From Anatilimnocola floriformis (GTDB lineage Bacteria > Planctomycetota > Planctomycetia > Pirellulales > Pirellulaceae): DNA of 64,000 nt. The notes beneath the pieces are model-generated. The model was given only the letters and a program-made list of their open reading frames with translations. It was not told the DNA's origin and did not search any database. Shown here piece by piece: positions 3,276 to 16,159 of this stretch. The stretch's first letter is position 1, and each line of letters starts with the position of its first letter. The stretch covers positions 4,650,001 to 4,714,000 of the forward strand of contig NZ_JAMLFW010000001.1 in the NCBI RefSeq assembly GCF_024256385.1, in the 5' to 3' direction. The translations under genes were made by a program, and so were the position numbers.

Positions 3276-3926
3276 CTACACCGAAACGGTGAGATTGTTG
3301 ACCACGTCAGTCACGCCAGGAGCGCTACATGCAGCCGAACCGGCCTCTTCGCGTTCATTCCAAGAATGAACGGAGCCCGCGAGAGTAACTTTGCTGCCAT
3401 CGGCGGACACTTCAATTTGACCAGCATCGATCTCGGCATCCCGTTTGAGTGCCTTCTCGATCGCATCCTTTACTGCAGTCGGCTCGACAATGGGTTTCAA
3501 TGTGATGTTGTTGGATACACCCTTTACCCCCGACAGGTACTTCACAGCTTCCACAGCGGCTAACCGCTCAAAGCCCCAGGTGACGGTGCCTGTGAGGGTC
3601 ACCCAACCGCTTTCGATAGTAGCCTGGACCTGGCTCGGCACCCAAATATGCCACTTCAGTCCGCTCACCACCGCTTGGGCGAGTTCAGCGTCGGTACGCT
3701 TGTGAATTCCGGAGAGGTTGATCTCCATCTCTTCAACAATGGCTTTGACCCCTTCAACGCGCTGAACTGCCCGTTCGGCAGCGGCTTTTTCCGCATAGTG
3801 CGGAACACTACCGTTAAGCGTCACGATCCCATCCTTGGCAACGACGCTAATGTCCGTCGCAGTCACGGCAGGTTCCCAACGCAACGCCTCCATCACGTTT
3901 GCCTTCAGTTGTGCATCGGTCTTCAT
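3276..3926 (-). CDS. Triple BON-domain protein (OsmY-like)
   Basis: The 216 residues contain three BON domains (about 3-65, 78-140 and 150-214), each with the pattern of an alpha helix, '[11 protein letters not shown]' strand-turn-strand, and a final 'G V . . V . N . . .' strand. BON domains bind phospholipid or anionic ligands and occur in OsmY and other stress proteins. There is no obvious signal peptide, so it is probably cytoplasmic or exported by another route. It is a close paralogue of the protein at 6068-6718. Both are preceded by the same leader element, whose terminator-like hairpin ends 24 bp before this ATG; GGAAGG supplies the ribosome-binding site. Confidence 0.85.
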   Translation of the reverse strand: MKTDAQLKANVMEALRWEPAVTATDISVVAKDGIVTLNGSVPHYAEKAAAERAVQRVEGVKAIVEEMEINLSGIHKRTDAELAQAVVSGLKWHIWVPSQVQATIESGWVTLTGTVTWGFERLAAVEAVKYLSGVKGVSNNITLKPIVEPTAVKDAIEKALKRDAEIDAGQIEVSADGSKVTLAGSVHSWNEREEAGSAACSAPGVTDVVNNLTVSV

Positions 3927-3950: not shown

Positions 3951-4054
3951 AAAAAAATACCGACATGATCGAACACCACCAGGCGTTAGATCATGTCGGC
4001 TTACTCGTTAACGAGCCTCCCAGCATGCCTGGGATGCTCTTTATCTAGTCTTCC
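3951..4054 (-). promoter_or_regulatory. Leader element copy 1 (two hairpins, second followed by a U-run)
   Basis: Read on the minus strand: the conserved box GAAGACTAGATAAAGAGCA, a hairpin (TCCCAG-GCATG-CTGGGA), the palindrome GGCTCGTTAACGAGTAAG, then an 11-bp stem (3989-3999 with 3960-3970) and seven U (3957-3951), ending 24 bp before the BON gene. GAGC of the first box can pair with GCTC after hairpin 1. Three further copies lie at 6742, 9034 and 12842. Stem sequences differ while pairing is kept, so an RNA structure acting as a transcription attenuator or riboswitch is likely. The effector is unknown. Confidence 0.6.
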
Positions 4055-4136
4055 AACTACTCTGTTGTGCTCGCGAGAAGCGGTGGCTTACACGCGACGG
4101 AGCATTTGTAGCGTAGTCATCCGAGCGAACTGCAAT

Positions 4137-4772
4137 TCATGCGTCGGCGGTAACTGGTTCAGCATGAATTGTCGCGTTCGCGTGTGCCATTTCGAGTATG
4201 TCTTTGGCAAGAGCGACTTCGTCCGGCGTCCCATGAGCAACCAGAAGGAGTTTGCCGGTCTTCACTTCGGACTCGTATTGCACAACGCTGTCGTTAGGAA
4301 TTCCGATGCTGTAGAGCGCCGCGCCAAGGGCGCTGAGTCCACCCAGGACCACCGCTTCTTCCAGGGCACCAACAATCCACATCACGAGTGGTCCCCCGAC
4401 CAAAAGTGGCCCGATGCCTGGAACCCAGAAAAATCCCGAGCCGAGTAGCAATCCCCAAAAACCACCCCAGAATGCGCCCAGTTTGCCCCAATAAAGCATC
4501 CGGTCGCCAGTGTTGTAATAGCCGACGACATGCTCATTCGTGTGGTAGTCCTTGCCCACAACAGAAAGGTGCTTCATTTCAAAGTTGCCTTTCTCAAGCT
4601 TGCGGATCGCACTCTCCACTTGATCGTGTGTGTCAAAAGTCGCAACTACGGAATTCGTGTTGCGCTGCCTGGTGTTGCGACTCTGCGATGAGTTTCTCCG
4701 CAAAGGCATCTTACCTTCGCGTTCAGTTCGCGTTTCGGCATCGTACTTTTCCTCTGTCCAATCAGTCGTCAT
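4137..4772 (-). CDS. YflT-like general stress / low-temperature-type membrane protein
   Basis: A 211-residue protein. After about 40 low-complexity charged residues comes the pattern SVVATFDTHDQVESAIRKL, typical of the general-stress-protein 17M (YflT-like) domain. A glycine-rich hydrophobic hairpin follows (about 95-145, GKLGAFWGGFWGLLLGSGF and a second segment), then a C-terminal domain ending in a strand that reads GKLLLVAHGTPDEVALAKDIL. Such proteins are usually inner-membrane-associated and stress-induced; their biochemical role is not known. It lies between the BON leader and a release-factor-like gene in the stress block. Confidence 0.6.
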   Translation of the reverse strand: MTTDWTEEKYDAETRTEREGKMPLRRNSSQSRNTRQRNTNSVVATFDTHDQVESAIRKLEKGNFEMKHLSVVGKDYHTNEHVVGYYNTGDRMLYWGKLGAFWGGFWGLLLGSGFFWVPGIGPLLVGGPLVMWIVGALEEAVVLGGLSALGAALYSIGIPNDSVVQYESEVKTGKLLLVAHGTPDEVALAKDILEMAHANATIHAEPVTADA

Positions 4773-4803
4773 AAGTCACGGTCCTCCCGATCATTTTGCG
4801 TTT

Positions 4804-5508
4804 CTAAACAGCCTTGGAAGCGAAGAACTCACGGGCCTGCGCCAGCAAATGGTCGTCAGTCACGTGATGGGCATCGATTACGACAGAGCCCACTACATGC
4901 GCGGCGATATCGCGATGATTGCCTTTCAGTTCGGCAAGCAGCTCTGACATCGCACTGCTCTCGCCGGTGCCACTTCCGAAAATCAAGATCTGCTCAGCTC
5001 CCCGTAGTGTCGCGGCAACCGCTTCGTAAAAACTCTTGAGTTCAGGGCGGCGCTTTCCATCGCCCGCCTCCGAATTGTGCCTTAAGCGGCGACCGAACCC
5101 GTGCGGGTCGTAAGGCACTAACTGTTGCGGAATTGCCCCGTGTAATTCCGTGCGATAGACCTTTGCCTCTCGGTGTTCGATTACCACAAGCAAGTGAGTG
5201 CCGGGCGCGTTCGGCGGGAGAGCCTTTGCCTCGTCCGACAGTTCCAGGAAGCGGCGAATCACCAGCAGGTCTTCAACGGTGGCCACGTCTTTATGCCTGG
5301 GAGCATGAACGACTATCGAATGTCCGTTGCGCGTAAGATGGAGGGAACCGTTGTGCCCCTCGGACACTTCCGCCACGGCTTCTAGAAGTGACTTTACATC
5401 GCGCCATTCTAAGTTATGAGCCGCTGGGTGACGGAAAATCGCTTCGTAGGTGTGTCGATGGTGCTTTACCAGATCATCTAGAGCCTTAGTGTGATCTTGA
5501 GTCGTCAT
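4804..5508 (-). CDS. Hypothetical protein, HicA-like N-terminus and possible eRF1/baeRF-like C-terminus
   Basis: 234 residues, no signal peptide. The N-terminal half (30-90: LEWRDVKSLLEAV...GSLHLTRNGHSIVVHAP) resembles the double-stranded-RNA-binding-like fold seen in HicA-type proteins. The middle (LLVVIEHREAKVYRTELHG) and the end (ILIFGSGTGESSAMSELLAEL) recall bacterial relatives of archaeal/eukaryotic release factor 1 (baeRF), which are linked to ribosome stress. Both assignments rest on motif resemblance only. It sits 30 bp from the YflT-like gene and is probably co-transcribed with it. Confidence 0.45.
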   Translation of the reverse strand: MTTQDHTKALDDLVKHHRHTYEAIFRHPAAHNLEWRDVKSLLEAVAEVSEGHNGSLHLTRNGHSIVVHAPRHKDVATVEDLLVIRRFLELSDEAKALPPNAPGTHLLVVIEHREAKVYRTELHGAIPQQLVPYDPHGFGRRLRHNSEAGDGKRRPELKSFYEAVAATLRGAEQILIFGSGTGESSAMSELLAELKGNHRDIAAHVVGSVVIDAHHVTDDHLLAQAREFFASKAV

Positions 5509-5673
5509 ACGATTGTCCTTTAAAGTGCTTTCGGTACTTGCAGTATCGAGAGGGTCTGGCCGCTAGTCAGCCGGGTCGATGCTACGCCCGAGACTCATTC
5601 CGACCGGTCGCAGTCCGCCGTGATAATGTTCCGGGGTCCCGCGTCGTCTGCGTTTGCAGCGGCTAAACTCTAC

Positions 5674-5922
5674 TTAGTTTTCGATCTTGGCTGGCTTAGT
5701 GATGTACGCCAATTTGACATTGACGTGGTACTCGATGATTTTTCCATCGCTGATCGTGGCTGTGCTGTGCAGGATATCCAGCCCTGTAACGTGACGGTGA
5801 CTTGCGCAAGCGCGTTCGACCGCCTCGCGAGCGGCGTCGCTCCAGCTTTCCTTCGACACCCCTACCATTTCGACTATCTCAATGGTGGCGGGCGATTTGG
5901 CGTGATCGATAGTTTTGGACAT
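5674..5922 (-). CDS. Dodecin family flavin-binding protein
   Basis: The 82 residues match dodecin along their length: an N-terminal strand (IEIVEMVGVSKESW), the helix SDAAREAVERACAS and the strand pattern TGLDILHSTATISDGKIIEYHVNVKLAY. Dodecins form hollow dodecamers that bind and buffer flavin or CoA. The family length is 65-75, so this one carries a short N-terminal tail. It lies in the minus-strand stress group between the release-factor-like gene and the second BON gene. Confidence 0.85.
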   Translation of the reverse strand: MSKTIDHAKSPATIEIVEMVGVSKESWSDAAREAVERACASHRHVTGLDILHSTATISDGKIIEYHVNVKLAYITKPAKIEN

Positions 5923-6016
5923 ATTTCATGTTCCTGAAAAAGATGGGACAGACTGACAATGAGCGGAGCCGCTCACTTAACCGACGTCGGCCACTGAAGA
6001 AATGAAAGGGACAGTC

Positions 6017-6052
6017 GTCATGACGACAGGTATTGCGACCTGCCGTCATGAC
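6017..6052 (-). terminator. Strong hairpin downstream of the second BON gene
   Basis: A 15-bp stem (6017-6031 with 6038-6052, one A/G-type imperfection) with a 6-nt loop lies 16 bp after the BON stop codon. On the minus strand it is followed by a pyrimidine-rich tract (CTGTCCCTTTC). It probably ends or stabilises the BON transcript. Confidence 0.55.
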
Positions 6053-6067
6053 CTGTTCGAGTTGTTG

Positions 6068-6718
6068 CTAATACGCGATCGCGAGGTTGTTCTCGACTTC
6101 GGTTACTCCGGGAGCACTCCAAGCGGCCGCACCGGCTTCGTTTCGCTCATTCCAGGAATGTACTGAGCCGGCGAGCGTCACTTTGCTGCCGTCTGCCGAT
6201 ACCTTAATGTTCTTGGCATCGATTTCGGCATCACGCTTCAGCGCCTTTTCAATCGCATCCTTGACCGTCGTTGGTACGACAGTCGAAGTGAGGGTGATGT
6301 TGTTAGTGATTCCCTTAACACCACTTTGAAAACGCACGGAATCTTCAGCGGAGACACGCTGAAATCCCCAAGTAACGGTACCCGTGAGTGTCACCCAGCC
6401 GTTTTCAACGGTCGCCTGGACGTGGTCTGGCACCCAAACGTGCCACGCGAGGCTGTCCACGACGGATTGGGCTATCTCCGAATCCTTGCGTTTGTGGACA
6501 CCGCTGGGGTTCACTTCCATCGCTTCAGCAATGGCTTTGACCCCTTCGACACGCTGAGTCGCCCGCTCGGCGGCACATTTTTCCGCATAGTGCGGAACGC
6601 TACCGTTGAGCGTCACGATCCCATCCTTGGCAACGACGCTAATGTCTGTCGCAGTCACGGTTGGTTCCCAGCGCAATGCCTCTAACACGTCTGCCTTCAG
6701 TTGTGTATCAGTCTTCAT
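6068..6718 (-). CDS. Triple BON-domain protein, paralogue of the 3276-3926 protein
   Basis: A 216-residue protein with the same three-BON layout, and the same length, as its paralogue 2 kb away; the first 65 residues are nearly identical and divergence rises towards the C-terminus. The ATG at 6718 is preferred over 6757 because GAAAGG lies 6 bp upstream and the longer frame would begin inside the leader. Leader copy 2 ends 23 bp before the start. The pair looks like a tandem duplication of leader plus gene. The role is probably envelope stress or phospholipid binding, inferred from the family. Confidence 0.85.
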
Positions 6719-6741
6719 TTCAAACCTTTCATCGCATGGCG

Positions 6742-6853
6742 AAAAAAAAGCCGACATGATCCAACACCACTAGGTGTTCAATCATGTCGGCTTACTCGTT
6801 AATGAGCCTCCCCGCATGGCCGGGCTGCTCTTTATCTAGTCTTCCAACTACTC
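6742..6853 (-). promoter_or_regulatory. Leader element copy 2
   Basis: On the minus strand: box GAAGACTAGATAAAGAGCA (6854-6836), hairpin CCCG-loop-CGGG, GGCTCATTAACGAGTAAG, then an 11-bp stem (6791-6781 with 6760-6750) containing an inner 6-bp stem AACACC-ACTA-GGTGTT, then an eight-base U-run (6749-6742). The BON start codon is 23 bp further on. It is close to copy 1 in sequence but differs in hairpin 1 and the inner stem while keeping the pairing. Confidence 0.6.
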
Positions 6854-6872
6854 TTGCATCGCTAACTTCAAT

Positions 6873-7001
6873 TCAGAGAACGTCTTCAAGCAAACGGCAT
6901 ACCTCATCGCAAGTCTTGAGGCCGCTTAAACAGCCGACAATCACATCGTGTGGGATAAGTCGAACCAAATGCACTTCTTCGGAAATGTCATCATGATTCA
7001 C
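6873..7001 (-). CDS. Possible 42-residue small protein
   Basis: Starting at a GTG 8 bp after the TraR stop, a 42-codon frame reads NHDDISEEVHLVRLIPHDVIVGCLSG and so on to EDVL, with two Cys and an acidic character. It looks like a folded alpha/beta peptide rather than noise, and it ends just before the leader element. The only good Shine-Dalgarno (GGGAGG) sits on top of the start, so translation is uncertain. No family is recognised. Confidence 0.3.
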   Translation of the reverse strand: MNHDDISEEVHLVRLIPHDVIVGCLSGLKTCDEVCRLLEDVL

Positions 7002-7008
7002 CTCCCGC

Positions 7009-7410
7009 TCAACGGAAGCGCCGCGGTTCACCGCGTACCGGTTGATCGATCGCGTCGCGGTCACTGCGAGCGCAATCGATACAATGTGCTGCATAGGGAA
7101 TGGCCTGCAAACGCGCCTCGTCAATAAGTTTTCCACACTGCTCGCAAACGCCGTAGTTACCCGCCTCGATCCTCTGAATCGCAGCTTGAACTTGCTCCCA
7201 AAGCAACTCCTCATTTTGCGCAATCGCAATTTCGGCATCCAATCCTTCGACGTCTTGGTCGGCGGGATGCGTGGGCAGGCTTGTGTTTTCTCCTGGCTTT
7301 ACCACATCTTCGCGCAGCGATTCTGCTGCTAGTGCCGCTTCACGCTTCAGCCGCTTTCCTAGTTCGAGCAATTTCGATTTGATGTCGGCCTGCTCCGTCT
7401 TCGTCATCAA
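7009..7410 (-). CDS. TraR/DksA-type C4 zinc-finger protein
   Basis: 133 residues with an N-terminal helical hairpin (to about 85) and a C-terminal C4 zinc finger (YGVCEQCGKLIDEARLQAIP followed by CIDC). DksA/TraR proteins enter the RNA polymerase secondary channel and, with or without ppGpp, reset transcription under stress. Length and finger spacing fit the short YocK/TraR-like branch. It belongs to the same minus-strand block as the BON and response-regulator genes. Confidence 0.8.
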   Translation of the reverse strand: MMTKTEQADIKSKLLELGKRLKREAALAAESLREDVVKPGENTSLPTHPADQDVEGLDAEIAIAQNEELLWEQVQAAIQRIEAGNYGVCEQCGKLIDEARLQAIPYAAHCIDCARSDRDAIDQPVRGEPRRFR

Positions 7411-7485
7411 GTGAGTCCTTTAAAACATGGTTCAGCTGTGGTTTCTTCAGCCGCTGTACTCGACACCGATCTCGGCGCGATAGCG

Positions 7486-8103
7486 TCATTTCGGACCGTT
7501 CAGGTTACCCTCGCCAATGAGTCTGGCAGTCTTCGACGCAAGCAATCGCTGCGCCCTTACCATCTCCAGCAACAGCAAGGTTTCCACGAGAAACAGTTCG
7601 ATGGGCTTGATCAGCAACAGGTCAATGCCTGCCTGGATAGATTGACTTCGTCGTTCTGCATCGGTTCGCCACGTGACGCCGATGATGAAGCATTCCTCTT
7701 TAGGAAAGTCGAGTCGCAGTTGTCGGGTGACTTGGCACCCATCCATATGCGGCATTTCAAGATTCAGCAGCACAAGCTGAGGGTGAAGCTTTGCAGCCAT
7801 ACGAAGTGCGGTTTGGCCGTCATAAGCGATGCGAGGATTGTGTCCGCCGCAACGTAGCCACCTGCCGAGTTCGTCAGCCTGTTCTTGATCGTTGTCGACA
7901 ACCAGGACGTGAAGAGTTCGTAGCCGAAGTGGCAACGTGCGTCGTGTTCGACTTAATTCCCATCGAGTCGAAGGCTGCCGGCACTGAACGTGATTTGCTA
8001 CCGGGGCGGGAGTCGATAGTGCCGCATCCGCTGATAACCAAGCTTTGATTTGCTGGGTGTCCAATCTGTCTTCCTTAACGATGAGCGTTCCTGGTATGTG
8101 CAT
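7486..8103 (-). CDS. Atypical receiver-domain protein with Asn at the phosphoacceptor site
   Basis: 205 residues when started at the ATG 4 bp after the upstream MpsC-like gene; the open frame runs further up but overlaps that gene. After about 62 unassigned residues comes a receiver domain (65-180): VVDND acid pair, LNLEMPHMDG, a Thr at strand 4 and Lys166 (IKP). The position that is phosphorylated in ordinary response regulators is Asn114 (codon AAT), so it should not be activated by phosphotransfer to Asp. No output domain is present. It may be a constitutive or partner-binding pseudo-receiver acting with the MpsC protein encoded just before it. Confidence 0.7.
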   Translation of the reverse strand: MHIPGTLIVKEDRLDTQQIKAWLSADAALSTPAPVANHVQCRQPSTRWELSRTRRTLPLRLRTLHVLVVDNDQEQADELGRWLRCGGHNPRIAYDGQTALRMAAKLHPQLVLLNLEMPHMDGCQVTRQLRLDFPKEECFIIGVTWRTDAERRSQSIQAGIDLLLIKPIELFLVETLLLLEMVRAQRLLASKTARLIGEGNLNGPK

Positions 8104-8107
8104 TTGT

Positions 8108-8575
8108 TTAAGCACCGGCGTCGGGCACGGGGCGAAGTCCGTCGTCATCGGCTTGCCCAATCTGAAGGTCGTCGGCATTGCCTGGTGACTGACTCGCGGG
8201 TGTGTTCGGCGTGAGCAAGAACACCTGGACCATCGCTCCGGTTGTGAATGCGTGAACGACGGTTCCAGTTGCTGTTTCGACTTCTGTGGCCGCTTCACGC
8301 ACTTGTCGACCAGTGATCCGCTTGATCTCTTGTCGCATTTCCTCAACGGAACTCGCAAAAAGTTGTCGGTGAAAGTCTTGCACTTGGGCCGCTCCTTGCG
8401 GCGACTGGGAAAGTGCTTTCTCCGCCGGAGTAAGGGCCTCAAGTAACGTAATGACCAAAGTGTCCTCGCTAAGCACCACCGTTACGGATTGCGGGGCGTG
8501 CCCGGTTTGCCGCCGCTGAAAATCGCTAGCGATGAGCGCGACTTGTTTCGCCATTTCTGTTGCGGATTGTTTCAT
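8108..8575 (-). CDS. DUF2294 / MpsC-like protein
   Basis: 155 residues. The core SVTVVLSEDTLVITLLEAL.PAEKAL followed by a helix and the TGRQVREAATEVETATGTVVHAFT segment corresponds to the DUF2294 (MpsC) fold, with a divergent C-terminal tail rich in Asp and Pro. The first protein so named is part of the staphylococcal MpsABC cation/bicarbonate system; here no MpsA/B partner is nearby. Start 8575 is chosen because GGAG lies 7 bp before it; the upstream TTG at 8605 lacks a site. Two further relatives are at 9252 and in the C-terminal half of 15305-16159. Confidence 0.6.
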   Translation of the reverse strand: MKQSATEMAKQVALIASDFQRRQTGHAPQSVTVVLSEDTLVITLLEALTPAEKALSQSPQGAAQVQDFHRQLFASSVEEMRQEIKRITGRQVREAATEVETATGTVVHAFTTGAMVQVFLLTPNTPASQSPGNADDLQIGQADDDGLRPVPDAGA

Positions 8576-8601
8576 ACGTTCGCTCCGGTGTTGAACACCG
8601 T

Positions 8602-8988
8602 TCAAACAGCGTTTAATTCGCAGGCGGACGCTGCTTGCTCGAACGCTTCATTTACCCTGGCCTTTAGCAGCGCTAGCCCACATGGCTTCGTGAGACACGC
8701 GAATGCCCCCGCAGCTTTAGCTTCGGACGCGGGAACGTCGTGGCCGGATAAGAGGATGACTTGAAGGACTTCCTGGGTCCGCTTTAGTTGACGCATCAGT
8801 TGAATGCCGTCAATTTCCGGTAGGCTGAGGTCGAGCAGCGCGACTTGGAACTGTTGGAAACTCGCTGCTTCCAGTGCCTGCCGCGGATGGATAACGCCAA
8901 CCACGTGCCATCCGTCGAGGATGAACCAGCGAGCCAAAGAATCAACTTGATCAGGGTTGTCGTCAACGATCAAAATGGAACGGTTCAT
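8602..8988 (-). CDS. Single-domain (CheY-like) response regulator
   Basis: 128 residues that are almost entirely a receiver domain: D9-D10, phosphoacceptor Asp53 (LLDLSLPEIDG), Ser at strand 4 (LLSGHD) and the conserved Lys (TKP). There is no output domain, so it probably relays phosphate or binds a partner. The ATG at 8988 has AGGA 8 bp upstream, and the longer frame would start inside leader copy 3. It is the first gene of the minus-strand run that continues with the MpsC-like and pseudo-receiver genes. Confidence 0.8.
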   Translation of the reverse strand: MNRSILIVDDNPDQVDSLARWFILDGWHVVGVIHPRQALEAASFQQFQVALLDLSLPEIDGIQLMRQLKRTQEVLQVILLSGHDVPASEAKAAGAFACLTKPCGLALLKARVNEAFEQAASACELNAV

Positions 8989-9033
8989 ATTTTGCATCCT
9001 GAAATCTTCATGATCGAGCGAACTCAGTCCAAG

Positions 9034-9134
9034 AAAAAAACCGACCCGACAAGACACTCGATAGTGACTTGCCGGGTCGGTTTACTTGTTAACAAGCCCC
9101 CTGGCATGTGCCAAGGTGCTCTTTATCTAGTCAT
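9034..9134 (-). promoter_or_regulatory. Leader element copy 3 (compensatory changes in the stem)
   Basis: Minus strand: GACTAGATAAAGAGCA, hairpin TGGC-ACAT-GCCA, GGCTTGTTAACAAGTAAA, then a 13-bp stem (9080-9068 with 9053-9041) and seven U (9040-9034), 45 bp before the response-regulator ATG. Relative to copies 1 and 2 both arms of the stem are changed together (CCGACATGATC to CCGACCCGACAAG with matching partner), and the CTCGTTAACGAG palindrome became CTTGTTAACAAG. This double change argues for selection on RNA pairing. Confidence 0.6.
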
Positions 9135-9251
9135 CCGAATTACGTTTGCGTTGCCGAGCGGAGTTTGAACAGGACGCGCCACCCGACACCGTGTAGAATA
9201 CGCCTTCGCTTCGCAGAGACAAGGGGGCGGCCACGCCATGACCACGTTTTA

Positions 9252-9650
9252 ATGCCCGAAGGAGACGGTTTGAAGACCCTGGGAGAGATTGAAGCCGCTG
9301 TCTGTGAAGGCATCTCGCGTTTCGAGCAAGAGTACATGGGGCGTGGCCCGAAGCACATCTCTGCGCACTTGCTGGGCGATCTGCTAGTGATTCGCCTGCA
9401 AGGGGTTTTGACCTCCGCCGAACAACACCTCGTGACCACCTTGCCGCCTGAAAAGGGGCGAGATTTGCTCAAACAAGTTCGCACACAACTCATCGAGATC
9501 GCCAGGCCAAAGCTGGATACGATGATTCAAGGCATAGTCGGAGTCAGATCTCTGAGCTTGCACCACGATATAAGTACGATTACGGGCGAAGAAGTGGTGA
9601 TCTTCACGCTGAGTGAGGTGCCGCAATGTCGCGAAGCAAAGAAAAAGTGA
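9252..9650 (+). CDS. DUF2294 / MpsC family protein
   Basis: 132 residues if started at the ATG at 9252 (a longer frame reaches 9108 but the family match begins here). The match is full length: EGISRFEQEYMGRGPKHIS, LLVIRLQGVLTSAEQHL, GRDLLKQVRTQLIEIARP and the end DISTITGEEVVIFTL. No good Shine-Dalgarno precedes either start. It is transcribed away from the response-regulator run and is closely similar to the second half of the REC-MpsC fusion at 15305. Function is unproven; the family name comes from the Mps ion-transport system. Confidence 0.75.
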   Translation: MPEGDGLKTLGEIEAAVCEGISRFEQEYMGRGPKHISAHLLGDLLVIRLQGVLTSAEQHLVTTLPPEKGRDLLKQVRTQLIEIARPKLDTMIQGIVGVRSLSLHHDISTITGEEVVIFTLSEVPQCREAKKK

Positions 9651-9763
9651 GTCGGGATAGTCAGGTGTAACGCGAAATGCACCAAGTCTAAATTGCGAAC
9701 ATGATCCAGTGCCTCGACAGTCATTGTCGTTCGGCAATGGAAATTCCTGACGGAGTGACGCGC

Positions 9764-12436
9764 ATGCGTTCGACGAGCCACTCCCAAGTGTTGCCGAAAA
9801 AATTGCCCTCGACCATTCCACATCACAAACCACAGATCGAGGTCTCTCGGGCGCTTGTGGAAGCGGCCGCGCTGGACGTGGCGACTGTGTATCTCCGTGC
9901 AGCGACCCGACCGGCAGGACTCACAACAGAGGAAGCAGCCACGCGATTGGCGGACCATGGCCCCAACGTCTTGGCCAAGGACCGACGAGCTAGTCCTGGC
10001 AAGTTGCTCTATAACGCGGTGATCAATCCCTTGGTGATTTTGCTGCTGGTATTGGCAGGGGTCTCGTTTGCAACTGGAGATGTGCGTGCAGGGGTCGTCA
10101 TGTCGATGATGATTGCCCTGGGCGCTGGATTGAAACTCGTACAGGAAGCCCGCGCCGATAGCGCGGCAGCGAAGCTCAAGGCCATGATCTCGGTGACGGC
10201 GACCGTCGTACGCGATGGCCAACCGCGTGAACTCGCAATTGCGCAGATCGTACCCGGCGATGTGGTGAAGCTTGCCGCCGGAGATATGATTCCCGGTGAC
10301 GTGCGACTAACCGAGGCAAAAGATTTATTCGTGACTCAGGGGACGCTAACAGGCGAGAGCTTCCCAGTGGAGAAGTTTGCTGTCGAGAAGCACGCGGCGG
10401 CGGCGCCTCTGGAACTAACCAGCATCGCGTTCCTAGGAACCAGTGTCGAGAGTGGATCGGCAACCGCAGTGGTCGTCGGTACTGGGATGAAAACCTACCT
10501 GGGCGGCATGGCTCAACTATTGACCGAGCAGACGCCGCAGACTGCGTTTGACCATGGAATTACTCGCTTCACTTGGTTGATGCTGAGTTTCATCTTGGTC
10601 ATGGTGCCGCTTGTTTTTGTTATCAACGGGCTGACCAAAGGGACGTGGGGTAGCGCGTTTTTCTTCGCAGTGGCGGTGGCCGTCGGCCTAACGCCCGAGA
10701 TGCTTCCGATGATTGTGGCGGTCTGCTTGTCGAAGGGCGCGCTAACAATGAGCCGCAAGAAGGTGATCATGAAGCGGCTCAACGCCATCCAGAATCTTGG
10801 GGCGATGGACGTGCTGTGTACGGACAAGACCGGCACCCTGACCATGGATCATGTCATTTTAGAAAAGCACTGCGACGTAACGCTGAAGGAAGACGATGGC
10901 GTGCTGGCGCTGGCTTACATGAACAGTCATTTTCAGACCGGATTGAAGAACATCCTCGACCGCTCGATTCTTGCCCACACGGAGACGCACGCGCACGCCG
11001 CCATCCCCGAGTATGAGAAGGTGGACGAGATTCCGTTCGACTTCCAACGCCGCATCATGACCGTGGTGGTTCGCACGCCCAAAGATATGGATCTTGTTAT
11101 TAGTAAAGGAGCACCCGAGGAGATTTTCGCACGCTGTAACGAGTTCGAACTCGACGGGAAGCGGCTCTCGATGGACCACCTCTTCATCGAAGAACTCAAG
11201 GAGGAATACGAGCAGCTTAGTGCCGATGGCTTTCGGGTGCTCGCCATTGCCAGCAAATACGTGACGCCGCGAGGAGTTGTTGTGGGACACCCTACGCCTT
11301 ACTCGAAGGCGGACGAGTGCGATCTCACGCTGAATGGCTATGTGGCGTTCTTCGATCCGCCCAAGGAAACAGCAAAGTCGGCCATCAAAGCCTTAGAGGG
11401 CCACGGCATCAGCGTGAAAGTCGTGACTGGCGACAATGAGCGGGTAGCCTGTAAGGTCTGCAAGGACGTGGGGTTAGCGACCGAATTTGTTTTGCTTGGC
11501 AGTGAGGTCGAGAAGCTGACTGACGATCAACTCGCCGCTGCCGTGGATAAGACCACACTTTTCGCACGTGTCTCGCCTGCCCACAAGCAGCGCATCATCG
11601 CAGCGCTGCAATCCCGGCAGCACATCGTCGGCTTCATGGGTGATGGCATTAACGACGCGCCTGCCTTAAGGACAGCCGATATTGGCATCAGCGTCGATAC
11701 AGCTGTAGACATTGCCAAGGAATCGGCAGACATGATCCTGCTGGAGAAGTCGCTAATGGTCCTTGAAGAGGGCGTGGTTGAAGGGCGCAAGGTCTTCGTC
11801 AACATCGTCAAGTATGTTCGCATGGGGGCCAGCAGCAACTTCGGGAATATGTTCAGTGTGCTGGGTGCCAGCGTCTTTGTCCCATTCCTGCCGCTTGCGC
11901 CGATTCAGATTCTGGCGAATAACATGCTTTACGATATTAGTCAAACCGCCATCCCCACGGACAACGTGGATCCCGAGCAGATCGAAAAGCCGCGTCCCTG
12001 GGACATTCGGCAGTTAACTCGCTTTATTATCTTCATTGGCCCATGTTCCTCAATTTTCGACTATACCACCTTCTTCATGATGCTGTATCTGTTTGATTGC
12101 TGGGACGTTTCGACGCCTGAGGCCGCCGCGTACAGCGCGAGCCTCTTTCAAACGGGCTGGTTTGTGGAAAGCCTGCTGACGCAAACCGTCATCATCCATG
12201 TCATCCGCACCAATCGAATCCCGTTCCTACAAAGCATCGCATCGTGGCAGCTCCTTTTGGTGTCCGCGATTATCATCACCGTCGGCGTCGCTTTGCCGAA
12301 TACGCCCATTGGCAAGTATCTGGGATTTACCAGTCTGCCCGCCTTGTACTGGCCTCTATTGGGAATCACTCTGCTGTGCTACTTGTTCGTGACACAAATC
12401 GTAAAGATGTGGCTGCTGCGGCGAAAGTGGATCTGA
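9764..12436 (+). CDS. mgtA: MgtA/MgtB-type (P3B) cation-transporting P-type ATPase
   Basis: About 890 residues. It has the N-terminal cytoplasmic part of P2/P3 ATPases (TTEEAATRLADHGPN), the TGES actuator loop, phosphorylated Asp354 in CTDKTGTLT, the MTGDN-type hinge (VVTGDNE), GDGINDAPALR and a ten-helix membrane layout. Similarity is to the magnesium-importing MgtA family, which brings Mg2+ in with the gradient using ATP. The ATG at 9764 has GGAG 8 bp upstream; a longer start at 9701 has none. No MgtC or PhoPQ genes are near, and no Mg-sensing leader is recognised. Confidence 0.8.
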   Translation: MRSTSHSQVLPKKLPSTIPHHKPQIEVSRALVEAAALDVATVYLRAATRPAGLTTEEAATRLADHGPNVLAKDRRASPGKLLYNAVINPLVILLLVLAGVSFATGDVRAGVVMSMMIALGAGLKLVQEARADSAAAKLKAMISVTATVVRDGQPRELAIAQIVPGDVVKLAAGDMIPGDVRLTEAKDLFVTQGTLTGESFPVEKFAVEKHAAAAPLELTSIAFLGTSVESGSATAVVVGTGMKTYLGGMAQLLTEQTPQTAFDHGITRFTWLMLSFILVMVPLVFVINGLTKGTWGSAFFFAVAVAVGLTPEMLPMIVAVCLSKGALTMSRKKVIMKRLNAIQNLGAMDVLCTDKTGTLTMDHVILEKHCDVTLKEDDGVLALAYMNSHFQTGLKNILDRSILAHTETHAHAAIPEYEKVDEIPFDFQRRIMTVVVRTPKDMDLVISKGAPEEIFARCNEFELDGKRLSMDHLFIEELKEEYEQLSADGFRVLAIASKYVTPRGVVVGHPTPYSKADECDLTLNGYVAFFDPPKETAKSAIKALEGHGISVKVVTGDNERVACKVCKDVGLATEFVLLGSEVEKLTDDQLAAAVDKTTLFARVSPAHKQRIIAALQSRQHIVGFMGDGINDAPALRTADIGISVDTAVDIAKESADMILLEKSLMVLEEGVVEGRKVFVNIVKYVRMGASSNFGNMFSVLGASVFVPFLPLAPIQILANNMLYDISQTAIPTDNVDPEQIEKPRPWDIRQLTRFIIFIGPCSSIFDYTTFFMMLYLFDCWDVSTPEAAAYSASLFQTGWFVESLLTQTVIIHVIRTNRIPFLQSIASWQLLLVSAIIITVGVALPNTPIGKYLGFTSLPALYWPLLGITLLCYLFVTQIVKMWLLRRKWI

Positions 12437-12841
12437 TATAGCGATGTCCGAGAGCATTCGTCGTGTCGGATTTATGAATGGATCGGGGGTTAGCCACGCT
12501 GTTGCGGCGGTAGCGGGTTGCTGGTCTTTAACTATTGCTGCGTTTCGCAGCCACAAACAGAACGCGATGCTCGGTGTTCGCTATCCACGGCGTGCGGTGA
12601 TTCGCCCCACTCCGCAGTCCGGCCGTTCGCTCCGAGTTCGTCGCCGATCTTTTGAGCACGTCTCGGCACGGCGAACAACACTGGCCCGCGAAATGCGAAT
12701 CATGAACGAATCGTTCTGGGTGATGCAACTGCACTTTCGGTGGCGGCGGCCGAGCTAGTCATTGTGCCACCAAGTCGGTACTTCGCCTGCATTTACCACG
12801 GATGGTTAACTCAGCGGCAATCTGTAGAATGGTGGTTCACT

Positions 12842-12945
12842 CGGAAGATTAAATGAAGGGCAGTTCGGCAAATGCCGGTGGCCCGTCAGTGTATAAGCCG
12901 ATGTAGTCGATTGCCCAACGGGTGCGACCACATCGGCTTTTTTCG
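12842..12945 (+). promoter_or_regulatory. Leader element copy 4, upstream of the hybrid kinase
   Basis: This lies in the otherwise empty 613-bp gap 12437-13049. It has the same order as copies 1-3 but on the + strand: GGAAGATTAAATGAAGGGCA, hairpin CGGC-AAAT-GCCG, GGCCCGTCAGTGTATAAG, then stem GCCGATGTAGTCG (12897-12909) with CGACCACATCGGC (12925-12937) and six T (12938-12943). GGGC of the first box pairs with GCCC after hairpin 1, replacing GAGC/GCTC of copy 1. The kinase ATG is about 105 bp further on. The rest of the gap holds no gene that I can support. Confidence 0.55.
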
Positions 12946-13049: not shown

Positions 13050-15305
13050 ATGTTTGATGCTTCACCGCGTTCGGCGCTGGTTGTCATTGCCGACGAAGGG
13101 AGGCGGCACGCACTCAACCAACCGCTCCAAAAAGTAGGCTTCAAAATCCGAAACGCAACCAATGGAGCTGAAGGACTTCGCTTTGCGATGGAAATGCCGG
13201 ACATCATCATCCTTGATCTCCAACTTCCCGACATGAGCGGCTTCGAGGTCTGCTGCCGCCTGAAAGCACACGCTTCGACCGCAGATATTCCGGTTGTGCA
13301 CCTGTCGGATTCCCCCGTCGTCGTCGATGAGTTCAAGGCACATCTGGAACGAGGTGACGAAGCCTATTTGACCCATCCGGTAGACGCCGTTGAACTGCTG
13401 GCGACGGTCGAGGCGTTGATTCAGGCCAGGCAATCCGAGCGACGGTTCGGGAGCTTTCTGGAAGCAGCCCCAGATGCGGTTGTCATTATTGATCAAAACG
13501 GCAAGATCGTGCGGGTAAATGGACAGGCCGAAAGAATGTTCGGTCAAGGACGGGATGATTTGTTGGGGCAGGTAGTTGAAACCCTTTTGCCGGAAAGCTA
13601 TCGCGACAAGCACCGAGAGCAGCGTGTCGGATATCTAGCGAATCCTGCCACTCGGCCAATGGGATCAGGTTTGAGGCTCCGAGGACTACGTAAAGATGGC
13701 ACCGAGTTCCCTGTCGAAATCAGCCTCAGCCCCATTTTTGAGCGTGAGGGCATTCTGGTCGCCAGCATTATCCGGGATGTTTCCGAACGCAGCCGAATTG
13801 AAGCTCTGTTACAGGAATCAGAATTGCGATATCGCCGGCTGTTCGAGACGGCTAAGGATGGCATTCTGATCCTCGACACAGAGAGTGGGAGAATTACTGA
13901 CGCCAATCAGTTCATGAGCGAAATGTTAGGGCATTCCCATGAGCATTTCTTGGGCAAGGAACTGTGGGAGATCGGAGTGTTTAGCGACAGAGCGGCCCTT
14001 GAAGCCGCTGTGCGAACACTTCAAGACAAGGGATACATTCGCTTCGAACACTTGCCATTAGAAACCGACCGTGGATCGCTAGTTGAAGTTGAGATCGTCG
14101 CCAATGCCTATCGAGAAGGCACGCACAAGGTTATCCAATGCAACATTCGAGATATCACAGAACGCAGCAAGTTGGAAAACTCGCTGGTCGACTTACACCG
14201 TCGCAAGGACGAGTTCTTGGCAATGCTCAGTCATGAACTGCGCAATCCGCTGGCCCCGATTATCAACGCTGTGCAACTGCTGAGTCTTCAGAAGCAGGAA
14301 GACAAACTCCAGCATCAGGCGCGCCAAATCATTGAGCGCCAAGTGGGACAATTGACTCGGCTCATTGATGATCTGCTCGAAGTCTCTCGAATCACCAGCG
14401 GAAGAATTCATCTTCAACGCGAACGAGTCGGGTTGAATGGTGTGGTGGAACGTGGTGTCGAGACGACCCGCCCACTGCTAGATCAGCACCATCATGAACT
14501 CACGGTTTCCCTTTCATCGCAGCCAATTTGGGTCAACGCCGACCCGGCCCGACTCGAACAAATCGTTGTCAATTTGCTGACAAATGCGGCGAAATACACT
14601 GCTGACGGTGGAGCAATTGTGATTACGGTTCACCGAGAGGGAGATAAAGCGGTGCTGCGAGTGCGGGATTCCGGCGTCGGCATCGCCCCAGAACTGCTCC
14701 CCCATATTTTCGAACTTTTTACTCAGGCCGAGCGATCCCTAGATCGTTCACAAGGCGGGCTGGGCATCGGCCTCTGCCTGGTGCAGCGACTGGTGGAAAT
14801 GCACGATGGCAAAGTGGAGGCTAGTAGCACATTGGGACAAGGAAGCGAATTTGTTGTGCATCTGCCGATCATCACGACTCCTGCAGTTCCACCGACGTCA
14901 ATAAATCACATCGCAGCCGAATCGGACGGAATAGCATTGCGAGTGCTGGTGGTGGACGACAATATGGACTCGGCCCAATCACTGGGCATGCTGCTGGAAG
15001 TTACGGGTCATGACGTGCAATTGGCTTACGACGGTCCAACCGGATTACAGGCCAGCATTGATTACCAACCAAACGTCGTGCTGTTGGATATCGGGTTGCC
15101 AGGCCTTGATGGGTTTGAAGTTGCCAAACGCATCCGTGAACTACCCGCACTCAAGAACATTGTCTTGGTCGCCATGACTGGCTATGGAAATGTGGCAGAC
15201 GTGCGGCGCTCGGATGATGCCGGGTTCAATCACCATTTGGTCAAACCCGCGAACTTCTTGAAGATCAAAGAGATTCTGGCGACTGTCTCAGAGAAAGTGA
15301 TCTGA
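13050..15305 (+). CDS. Hybrid histidine kinase (REC-PAS-PAS-HisKA-HATPase-REC)
   Basis: 751 residues, no transmembrane segment, so a cytoplasmic sensor. Domains in order: receiver 8-128 (Asp56 present, but the conserved Lys is replaced, reading LTHPVD), PAS 135-255, PAS 262-375, HisKA with His395 in HELRNPLAP, HATPase about 495-612 (N, G1 and G2 boxes visible: NLLTNAAKYT, DSGVGI, GLGIGL) and a complete C-terminal receiver 633-747 with Asp680. It would autophosphorylate on His395 and pass phosphate to Asp680 and probably to the next gene's receiver. Its stop codon overlaps the next start by one base. Leader copy 4 lies upstream. Confidence 0.88.
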   Translation: MFDASPRSALVVIADEGRRHALNQPLQKVGFKIRNATNGAEGLRFAMEMPDIIILDLQLPDMSGFEVCCRLKAHASTADIPVVHLSDSPVVVDEFKAHLERGDEAYLTHPVDAVELLATVEALIQARQSERRFGSFLEAAPDAVVIIDQNGKIVRVNGQAERMFGQGRDDLLGQVVETLLPESYRDKHREQRVGYLANPATRPMGSGLRLRGLRKDGTEFPVEISLSPIFEREGILVASIIRDVSERSRIEALLQESELRYRRLFETAKDGILILDTESGRITDANQFMSEMLGHSHEHFLGKELWEIGVFSDRAALEAAVRTLQDKGYIRFEHLPLETDRGSLVEVEIVANAYREGTHKVIQCNIRDITERSKLENSLVDLHRRKDEFLAMLSHELRNPLAPIINAVQLLSLQKQEDKLQHQARQIIERQVGQLTRLIDDLLEVSRITSGRIHLQRERVGLNGVVERGVETTRPLLDQHHHELTVSLSSQPIWVNADPARLEQIVVNLLTNAAKYTADGGAIVITVHREGDKAVLRVRDSGVGIAPELLPHIFELFTQAERSLDRSQGGLGIGLCLVQRLVEMHDGKVEASSTLGQGSEFVVHLPIITTPAVPPTSINHIAAESDGIALRVLVVDDNMDSAQSLGMLLEVTGHDVQLAYDGPTGLQASIDYQPNVVLLDIGLPGLDGFEVAKRIRELPALKNIVLVAMTGYGNVADVRRSDDAGFNHHLVKPANFLKIKEILATVSEKVI

Positions 15306-16159
15306 TGACACTGACCGAGTCAACATTACGGGTACTAATTGTTGACGACAACCGAGATGGCGCAGATGCGTTGGGCTTGGTGGTGGAAACCTTCGGCAAC
15401 CAAGTTCATGTGACCTACGGCGGGAGCCAGGCGCTCGACGTTGCAACTGCATTTCGGCCCGATCTGATGCTCATTGATCTCGCCATGCCCGACATGGATG
15501 GTTGCGTTCTTGCTAATCGCTTTCGGCAGGCTTCTGAATTTGCTCGCACCAGGATCGTTGCGATCACAGGTCATGCGGACGAAGGACATCGAACATTGGC
15601 GATGAAGGCAGGCTTCGATGCTGTGCTTGCCAAGCCAGTTGCTCTCAAAGATATTGAAGGAGTCTTGGACGGAGTAAAGGGTGTCTTTACAGGCCAGTCG
15701 CGAAAGCCCCGAAGCGAAAGTGGAAACCTCGGAACACGCTCCCGATTGCCCATCGGCGAAGCCCGACGAATCCGAAGCGAACGCCCGTCGAAAGCTCTAA
15801 CGCAGACAGAAAGTCAAGCAGCAATCTGTGAAGGGATCATCAACTTTCAAGAGGAATACATGGGATTGCGGTCGGAGCAGATTCACTCCCACTTCATCAA
15901 AGACCTCTTGGTTGTACGCATTCACGGGACGTTGACATTAGCCGAGCGACAACTGGGCAAAGCATTGTCTCCAGAGAAAGGCCGTGATCTTATCAAACAG
16001 ACACGGAAGCAACTTGTGGAATTGGCTCGCCCGATGTTGGAATCGCTGGTCCACGAGGTCACGGGCGTAAAAGTGCGGAGTATGCACCATGACATCAGTA
16101 CCGTGACTGGCGAAGAGGTGATCCTCTTTACGTTGGTTGACCCGCCACGTTTTGGATAG
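15305..16159 (+). CDS. Response regulator fused to a DUF2294/MpsC domain
   Basis: 284 residues. Residues 8-125 are a complete receiver (DD at 14-15, phosphoacceptor Asp58 in LIDLAMPDMDG, Thr-like strand 4, Lys110). A basic, Ser/Arg-rich linker (130-160) leads to a full DUF2294/MpsC domain (163-280: EGIINFQEEYMGL, LLVVRIHGTLTLAERQLG, KGRDLIKQTRKQLVELARP, DISTVTGEEVILFTL). The DUF2294 domain therefore appears as an output module under phosphorylation control, with the overlapping hybrid kinase as the obvious donor. I do not know of an established role for such a fusion. Domain calls are firm; the signalling role is inference. Confidence 0.8.
   Translation: MTLTESTLRVLIVDDNRDGADALGLVVETFGNQVHVTYGGSQALDVATAFRPDLMLIDLAMPDMDGCVLANRFRQASEFARTRIVAITGHADEGHRTLAMKAGFDAVLAKPVALKDIEGVLDGVKGVFTGQSRKPRSESGNLGTRSRLPIGEARRIRSERPSKALTQTESQAAICEGIINFQEEYMGLRSEQIHSHFIKDLLVVRIHGTLTLAERQLGKALSPEKGRDLIKQTRKQLVELARPMLESLVHEVTGVKVRSMHHDISTVTGEEVILFTLVDPPRFG

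Follow-up and report, generated by a model that had tools for sequence, protein, structure and literature searches.

A probable transcription attenuator family in planctomycete stress and signalling leaders and its putative control by DUF2294 proteins

In the RAT systems (BglG/LicT/SacY), the leader RNA is described in PMC3369936 as an antiterminator stem with internal loops that is mutually exclusive with a terminator and is stabilised by a dimeric protein. ANTAR proteins (EutV, NasR, AmiR) provide antitermination coupled to a response regulator, in which one factor acts at several leaders of a gene cluster, and the RNA motif is depicted in the same source as two small hairpins with hexaloops carrying A1 and G4 (PMC7496416). 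Here we describe an element that resembles the RAT RNA in having one loop-interrupted antiterminator stem predicted to exclude a terminator, but that differs from it in a sensor of 61–62 nt (in the window copies) with several A.G/G.A mismatches; its targets are stress and signalling genes, whereas those of RAT are sugar genes. As in the ANTAR systems, a receiver fusion is encoded in the same cluster as the leaders; its partner domain is DUF2294, a Pfam family distinct from ANTAR, and the partner protein that we propose belongs to this MpsC/DUF2294 family (PF10057). MpsC was named after an operon of Staphylococcus aureus, where deletion of mpsC is reported to have left growth unimpaired, and outside staphylococci mpsC reportedly does not lie beside mpsAB (PMC6689103). 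With terminator-type riboswitches the element shares an aptamer-like domain and an intrinsic terminator in a 5′ leader, but it is matched by no Rfam family.

We propose, by analogy, that the element may work in the manner of the ANTAR and LicT/RAT systems. A CAT-domain system was rejected, as the genome contains no CAT_RBD protein by a search that was positive in four of 14 control genomes. The ANTAR two-hairpin motif was also rejected, none of 149 apical loops being six bases long as the model draws them. An ANTAR protein was sought in the genome and none was found; this search was positive in no control genome.

Leader elements and their distribution

The window is the whole 64,000-nt stretch of Anatilimnocola floriformis DNA that was analysed. 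An earlier note on it had claimed four copies of a structured leader, placed before two BON genes, a CheY-like regulator gene and a hybrid kinase gene. All four were found where it had put them, and both the measured spacing and domain searches agree with the distances and gene types that it gave. The elements, each about 105 nt long, and the genes around them are as follows (scores of elements are those of the covariance model, scores of DUF2294 genes those of Pfam, and other protein assignments come from domain searches).

3276..3926, minus strand: BON-domain protein under copy 1
3951..4056, minus strand: element copy 1, leader of the BON gene 3276–3926, 109.8 bits; predicted antiterminator arm 4053–4056 (UUGG), sensor hairpin to about 4003, CCGA 3996–3999 (within the terminator 5′ arm), U-run 3951–3957
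6068..6718, minus strand: BON-domain protein under copy 2
6742..6847, minus strand: element copy 2, leader of the BON gene with ATG at 6718, 116.8 bits; arm 6844–6847 (UUGG), CCGA 6787–6790, U-run 6742–6749
8108..8575, minus strand: DUF2294 type B gene, second gene under copy 3, behind the receiver gene, 81.4 bits
8602..8988, minus strand: CheY-like receiver protein under copy 3
9034..9138, minus strand: element copy 3, leader of the receiver gene 8602–8988, 110.5 bits; arm 9135–9138 (UCGG), CCGA 9077–9080, U-run 9034–9040
9270..9650, plus strand: DUF2294 (MpsC, PF10057) type A gene, divergent from copy 3, 119 bits
12841..12943, plus strand: element copy 4, leader of the PAS hybrid histidine kinase gene 13050–15305, 96.0 bits; arm 12841–12844 (UCGG), CCGA 12898–12901, U-run 12938–12943
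13050..15305, plus strand: PAS-HisKA-HATPase-receiver hybrid kinase under copy 4
15305..16159, plus strand: receiver fused to a type A-like DUF2294 domain, adjoining the hybrid kinase under copy 4, 99.9 bits

From U-run to start codon the distances are 24, 23, 45 and 106 nt for copies 1 to 4. The cluster further encodes a 234-residue protein without a Pfam match (4804–5508) and, by Pfam, a dodecin (5674–5922) and a DksA/TraR-type zinc-finger protein (7009–7410).

A pattern search with the core GAYTARATRAAGRGCA gave four exact matches in the window, which are the four copies, and two more with three mismatches each. Eight exact matches were obtained in the 8.9-Mb genome, namely those in the window and four others that lie within a paralogous stress cluster. 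When two mismatches were allowed, the genome gave 27 matches, compared with 28 for the reversed pattern; only exact matches were therefore counted. With a covariance model built from 150 copies, the same eight sites were the only strong matches, and the seven remaining ones were weaker and lay on the opposite strand of these sites. In the paralogous cluster (G000:C1:3.14–3.16 Mb; locus L028, G000:C1:3138001-3158000), BON, receiver and hybrid kinase genes stand behind its own four elements. Two BON leaders of this locus (5758–5870 and 10707–10819) are identical over the 125 nt compared, and it contains an ORF of 234 residues (8724–9428) that is like the window protein 4804–5508 by length alone.

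The four leaders belong to a larger RNA family, which is real and more extensive than first noted. We examined 168 distinct copies of the element, all from Planctomycetota. The seed comprised eleven copies, seven of the eight from the own genome (the eighth duplicates another) and four that a pattern search had picked out in relatives. Model R1 had matches in 34 of 117 relatives at E ≤ 0.01; many of the weak ones were opposite-strand echoes and were discarded, and 28 of the 117 relatives are counted as carriers (E 1.1e-9 or better). With a minimum score of 42 bits, the set from the relatives comprises 71 copies. Since the sole relative of the same genus (G001) gave weak matches only, the best at 2.5e-7, the family is patchily distributed. 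In a draw of genomes from the phylum the element was present in 11 of 392 at E ≤ 1e-6, within the same order, the same class and beyond; this figure is a lower bound because the filters were strict.

The covariance model, the comparison with Rfam and the search of planctomycete genomes that the earlier note had suggested thus yield a covarying family, negative in Rfam and with matches across the phylum. At gathering scores, no Rfam 15 family matched anywhere in the window. At E values up to 1 none matched at any element of 12 element-bearing loci, where the lone match was a tmRNA fragment away from the elements (L061, 3085–3114; 16 bits against a cut-off of 47). The RNA family is uncatalogued in that it matches no Rfam 15 family, and the statement that the leader fits no known class holds. 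A literature search on DUF2294/MpsC, planctomycete riboswitches, antitermination and stress RNAs, which covered few subscription journals, gave no description of the element among the matches listed.

Conserved fold and the predicted switch

As judged from the alignments, the family shares a fold made up of a single long, imperfect hairpin, its short helices parted by A.G/G.A mismatches, with the terminator directly behind it. RNAalifold returned the same fold when given 11 sequences aligned with MAFFT without constraint; it comprised 35 pairs, 18 of them with changes on both sides. The larger alignment A5 contains 149 distinct sequences from the best 150 of 159 matches and, being fitted to the model, is biased towards it. 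The 5′ half of the element in A5 runs UCGG, A-N-G, ACU, A-R-A, URA, A, GRGC, A and a variable hairpin; the 3′ half runs G, GCYY, G, UYA, R-Y-G, AGU and A-A-G, followed by the CCGA that opens the terminator. Compensatory changes occur in the ACU/AGU, URA/UYA and GRGC/GCYY pairings. Across the sensor and antiterminator structure 91.4% of cells were paired as opposed to 84.7% after shuffling, a level equalled by none of 500 shuffles, and 19 of the 22 pairs had changes on both sides, while a control in which partners were slid by 1–3 columns reached at most 14 pairs and 43.2%. The terminator likewise covaries, with 95.2% of cells paired and changes on both sides of 9 of its 14 pairs.

The covariation that the earlier note had read from four copies, in the GRGC/GCYY stem and in the terminator, was therefore confirmed on 149 distinct sequences. 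Its proposal that CTCGTTAACGAG forms an internal hairpin was rejected, since 73.9% of cells were paired compared with 73.6% for shuffled letters. The UUA half of CTCGTTAACGAG pairs with the UAA just 5′ of GAGC, and these become UGA/UCA in other copies. G-U combinations far exceed A-C in the sensor cells (223 and 22, respectively), so that the strand described is the RNA strand.

The mismatches are themselves conserved: A11.G96 in 115 of 148 sequences, A17.G90 in 98 of 148, A24.G83 in 122 of 149 and A29.G77 in 136 of 149, together with G13.A94 in the reverse orientation (139 of 146). The A.G mismatches are asymmetric, A occupying the 5′ strand of the stem and G the 3′ strand, and it looks as though the stem is probably read through them. 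The apical loop measures 3–4 nt in 119 of 149 sequences; it is unconserved and at times carries inserts.

The UCGG at the 5′ end (columns 7–10) is 93–98% conserved in the 149 sequences and is complementary to the CCGA near the base of the terminator 5′ arm. Because CCGA belongs to both structures, the predicted UCGG/CCGA helix and the terminator are mutually exclusive. In predicted folding of transcripts cut before the terminator 3′ arm, the probability of this helix averaged 0.90 and was above 0.5 in 138 of 148 cases; in full transcripts it was 0.002, with the terminator base at 0.983. Scrambling the 5′ end lowered the predicted value to 0.076, a control that demonstrates dependence but not significance, as it destroys the complementarity by design. 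Taken one by one, the four base pairs of the helix are present in 138, 148, 145 and 145 of 148 sequences. No covariation above that of shuffles was detected in the UCGG/CCGA helix, and since its pairs hardly vary, covariation neither supports nor rejects it. An antiterminator extended beyond UCGG/CCGA was rejected, columns 6–101 and 5–102 pairing no better than shuffled ones.

In three diverged copies (L251 1232–1358, L256 1077–1194 and L256 2039–2156) CCGA has become CCAA without a matching change, which is evidence against a strict requirement for UCGG/CCGA. These copies combine a rebuilt stem (e.g. CAA/UUG) with CCAA at the terminator base. An apparent further copy in L256 starts right behind that at 2039–2156.

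Gene context and co-occurrence with DUF2294 type A

Genes were called with a simple codon-usage gene caller. In 155 of the 168 distinct copies, element and next gene shared a strand; eight copies faced a gene on the opposite strand, at least one of them because the caller had missed a gene (L112/L162), and five had no called gene. The median distance from element to gene was 81 nt, with 124 copies within 300 nt, and 104 of the 155 same-strand copies stood within 150 nt. The 121 distinct proteins encoded within 300 nt included 42 DUF2294/MpsC, 7 receiver, 5 BON and 5 histidine-kinase domains (E ≤ 0.001), three desaturases, and CsrA, CsbD, sigma-70 and KaiC-like domains twice each; the DUF2294 share is inflated because DUF2294 type A was the query by which about half of the loci were collected. 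YflT-, GlsB- and DnaK-like products were recognised by eye alone. Matches thus precede stress or two-component genes, as the earlier note had asked to see, in the shape of receiver, BON, kinase, CsbD and DUF2294 genes. At other loci, type B is the most frequent direct target, in a collection where DUF2294 loci are over-represented. In the set from the relatives, which was not chosen by DUF2294, type B lay downstream of 18 of 71 copies and type A lay divergently upstream of 20 of 71.

Boxes resembling a −10 element were found upstream in 86 of 148 leaders, compared with 38 of 148 in one shuffle, and were concentrated 48–69 nt upstream of UCGG; this excess is suggestive only of a promoter upstream of the element. 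By eye, csrA-like genes stand behind or near elements at L108 3722–3949, L122 8553–8783 and L123 2701–2928, hinting that the attenuator may extend to this post-transcriptional regulator.

We counted a type A match as close at 165 bits or more, a cut chosen after the gap in scores had been seen. Among the relatives, the element occurred in 18 of 18 genomes with close type A and in 10 of 99 without (Fisher 2e-14, ancestry ignored), and in the phylum draw in nine of nine and 2 of 383, respectively (Fisher 1e-16, ancestry ignored). The two draws share three genomes, and there are 24 distinct close-type-A genomes overall. The next best type A score in the phylum draw was 154.6 bits (G383), and no element was found in that genome. 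When any DUF2294 was considered, the element was present in 23 of 34 relatives with and 5 of 83 without, leaving 11 of the 34 with no strong element. Conversely, 10 of the 28 element-bearing relatives were without close type A, and five of the 28 (G016, G063, G083, G104, G111) had no detectable DUF2294 in their assemblies; in the phylum draw, two of the 11 genomes with the element (G149, G333) gave no type A match. Two further genomes (G457, G483) have distant DUF2294 only (44% identity), with the diverged elements of L251 and L256 beside it that the phylum draw had missed; counting them, 4 of 383 genomes without close type A carry the element. Around 20 distant DUF2294 genes the model gave 17 weak matches, of which three, in L251 and L256, were counted. 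Most of the others resemble ordinary terminators to which the terminator part of the model responded, and none of them displays the conserved 5′ half by eye.

We also examined the best 80 of 259 type A loci from Planctomycetota, selected partly by a KGRDL motif and representing fewer than 80 genomes, as some gave two. An element lay within the flanks of up to 5 kb at 69 of these loci, one of them cut off by a contig end, and at 61 element and type A were divergently oriented less than 1 kb apart, in every case at 557 bp or less (median 215 bp). Of the other 11 type A genomes, nine carried an element elsewhere in the assembly (best E 1.7e-25 to 1.2e-11), whereas those of L134 and L181 had none detected (2 of 80). 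In all, the element accompanies type A for 78 of the 80 loci, 69 nearby and nine elsewhere, where ‘elsewhere’ is not always proven distance because the assemblies are drafts and, at L178, a contig edge cuts the flank off within a possible element. The co-occurrence is partly due to linkage.

Candidate factor and alternative explanations

The three DUF2294 proteins of the window all exceed the Pfam cut-off of 23 bits, and the DUF2294 domain of the receiver fusion is 52% identical to type A. Residues K62, R64, K68, R71 and R79 are invariant across type A (42 aligned sequences) and are retained in the receiver fusion, whereas type B does not conserve them (H at 71). K68 and R71 are not specific for the element RNA, since all 20 distant DUF2294 proteins that were compared have them as well. 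The conserved basic residues suggest, at most, nucleic-acid binding by the family, and the receiver–DUF2294 architecture suggests that DUF2294 serves as an output domain. A search for a relative of solved structure found none (one match, E 0.42), and among the literature matches listed, with subscription journals mostly outside their coverage, there was no report of RNA binding by DUF2294.

We consider it very likely that the elements are transcription attenuators. The earlier reading of an attenuating riboswitch or protein-bound leader is supported by covariation, by placement 5′ of genes on the same strand and by the mutually exclusive predicted folds. Each element would act in cis on the stress or signalling gene whose 5′ leader contains it. 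As it emerges, the RNA would first fold into the long imperfect hairpin closed by UCGG/CCGA, the putative antiterminator. When a factor is absent, the terminator 3′ arm would displace UCGG, the terminator would form and transcription would stop before the gene, giving an ‘off’ state by default; a factor clamping the hairpin would keep the antiterminator in place and allow polymerase to pass into the gene. The clamping factor would most likely be DUF2294 type A or the receiver–DUF2294 fusion, reading the purine mismatches. The type A product of 9270–9650 is accordingly cast as a candidate trans-acting RNA-binding factor, and the fusion of 15305–16159 as a candidate version under phosphorelay control. 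Taken as a whole, the statement that one of these proteins stabilises the antiterminator and brings the genes into expression seems to us somewhat more probable than its negation. We infer binding of the RNA by DUF2294, activation of the genes by that binding, and phosphorylation as the signal; which signal acts, and type B as a feedback partner, are conjecture.

A protein-bound leader is favoured over a ligand because close type A and the RNA co-occur almost without exception. A small-molecule or ion riboswitch, whose purine-rich internal loops would bind the ligand while DUF2294 genes would merely be frequent members of the regulon, is unlikely in our estimate. The unpaired and mismatched residues are very highly conserved, a mixed stress regulon (BON, CsbD, CsrA, KaiC-like proteins and kinases) could answer one second messenger, and DUF2294 is missing in five of the 28 element-bearing relatives. 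Yet the sensor is predicted to be one hairpin without branches (in a fold search without pseudoknots), its apical loop varies in length and sequence, and a ligand alone leaves the pairing of type A with the element at 78 of 80 loci unexplained. That same pairing bears on whether another RNA-binding protein switches the attenuator, with DUF2294 co-inherited along with the regulon. Linkage accounts for part of the co-occurrence, DUF2294 is the only protein family that was profiled across the relatives, and the 10 element-bearing relatives without close type A would fit such a protein; we nevertheless regard it as rather improbable, as co-occurrence persists where elements lie outside the type A flanks (9 of 11 genomes, in draft assemblies and with the contig edge of L178) and the own genome holds no CAT-type antiterminator.

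A conserved RNA sequence followed by a strong terminator could belong to a free-standing small RNA acting in trans. This we judge very improbable given the predicted fold that competes with the terminator and the same-strand gene following 155 of 168 copies, in 104 of the 155 within 150 nt. Scarcely credible is a combination of ordinary terminators of upstream genes with a DNA operator of dyad symmetry: inverted repeats could serve as operators, but G-U far exceeds A-C, the mismatches are asymmetric between the two sides, and at 61 of 80 type A loci the element and type A diverge no more than 557 bp apart, so that an upstream gene would have little space in which to end.

Overall, the comparative data point to a new attenuator family that controls a stress regulon and is probably switched by DUF2294 proteins, the receiver fusion of the window included. 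A broader proposal is that DUF2294/MpsC is an unrecognised RNA-binding antiterminator domain, that type A and the receiver fusions bind the new RNA family, which is present in several classes of Planctomycetota, and in this way run a general stress regulon through regulated termination, and that type B is a frequent target and possibly a feedback partner; here we see the case for and against as evenly balanced. The RNA family is uncatalogued, covaries strongly and occurs in several copies per genome, with a coherent list of targets (DUF2294, BON, CsbD, CsrA and receiver proteins, PAS kinases and sigma factors), and it offers a concrete candidate function for DUF2294, an orphan domain. If DUF2294 binds the element RNA, it would join CAT and ANTAR as a signal-responsive antiterminator family, and if the proposal is true, the general stress response of Planctomycetota would be set through controlled transcription termination.
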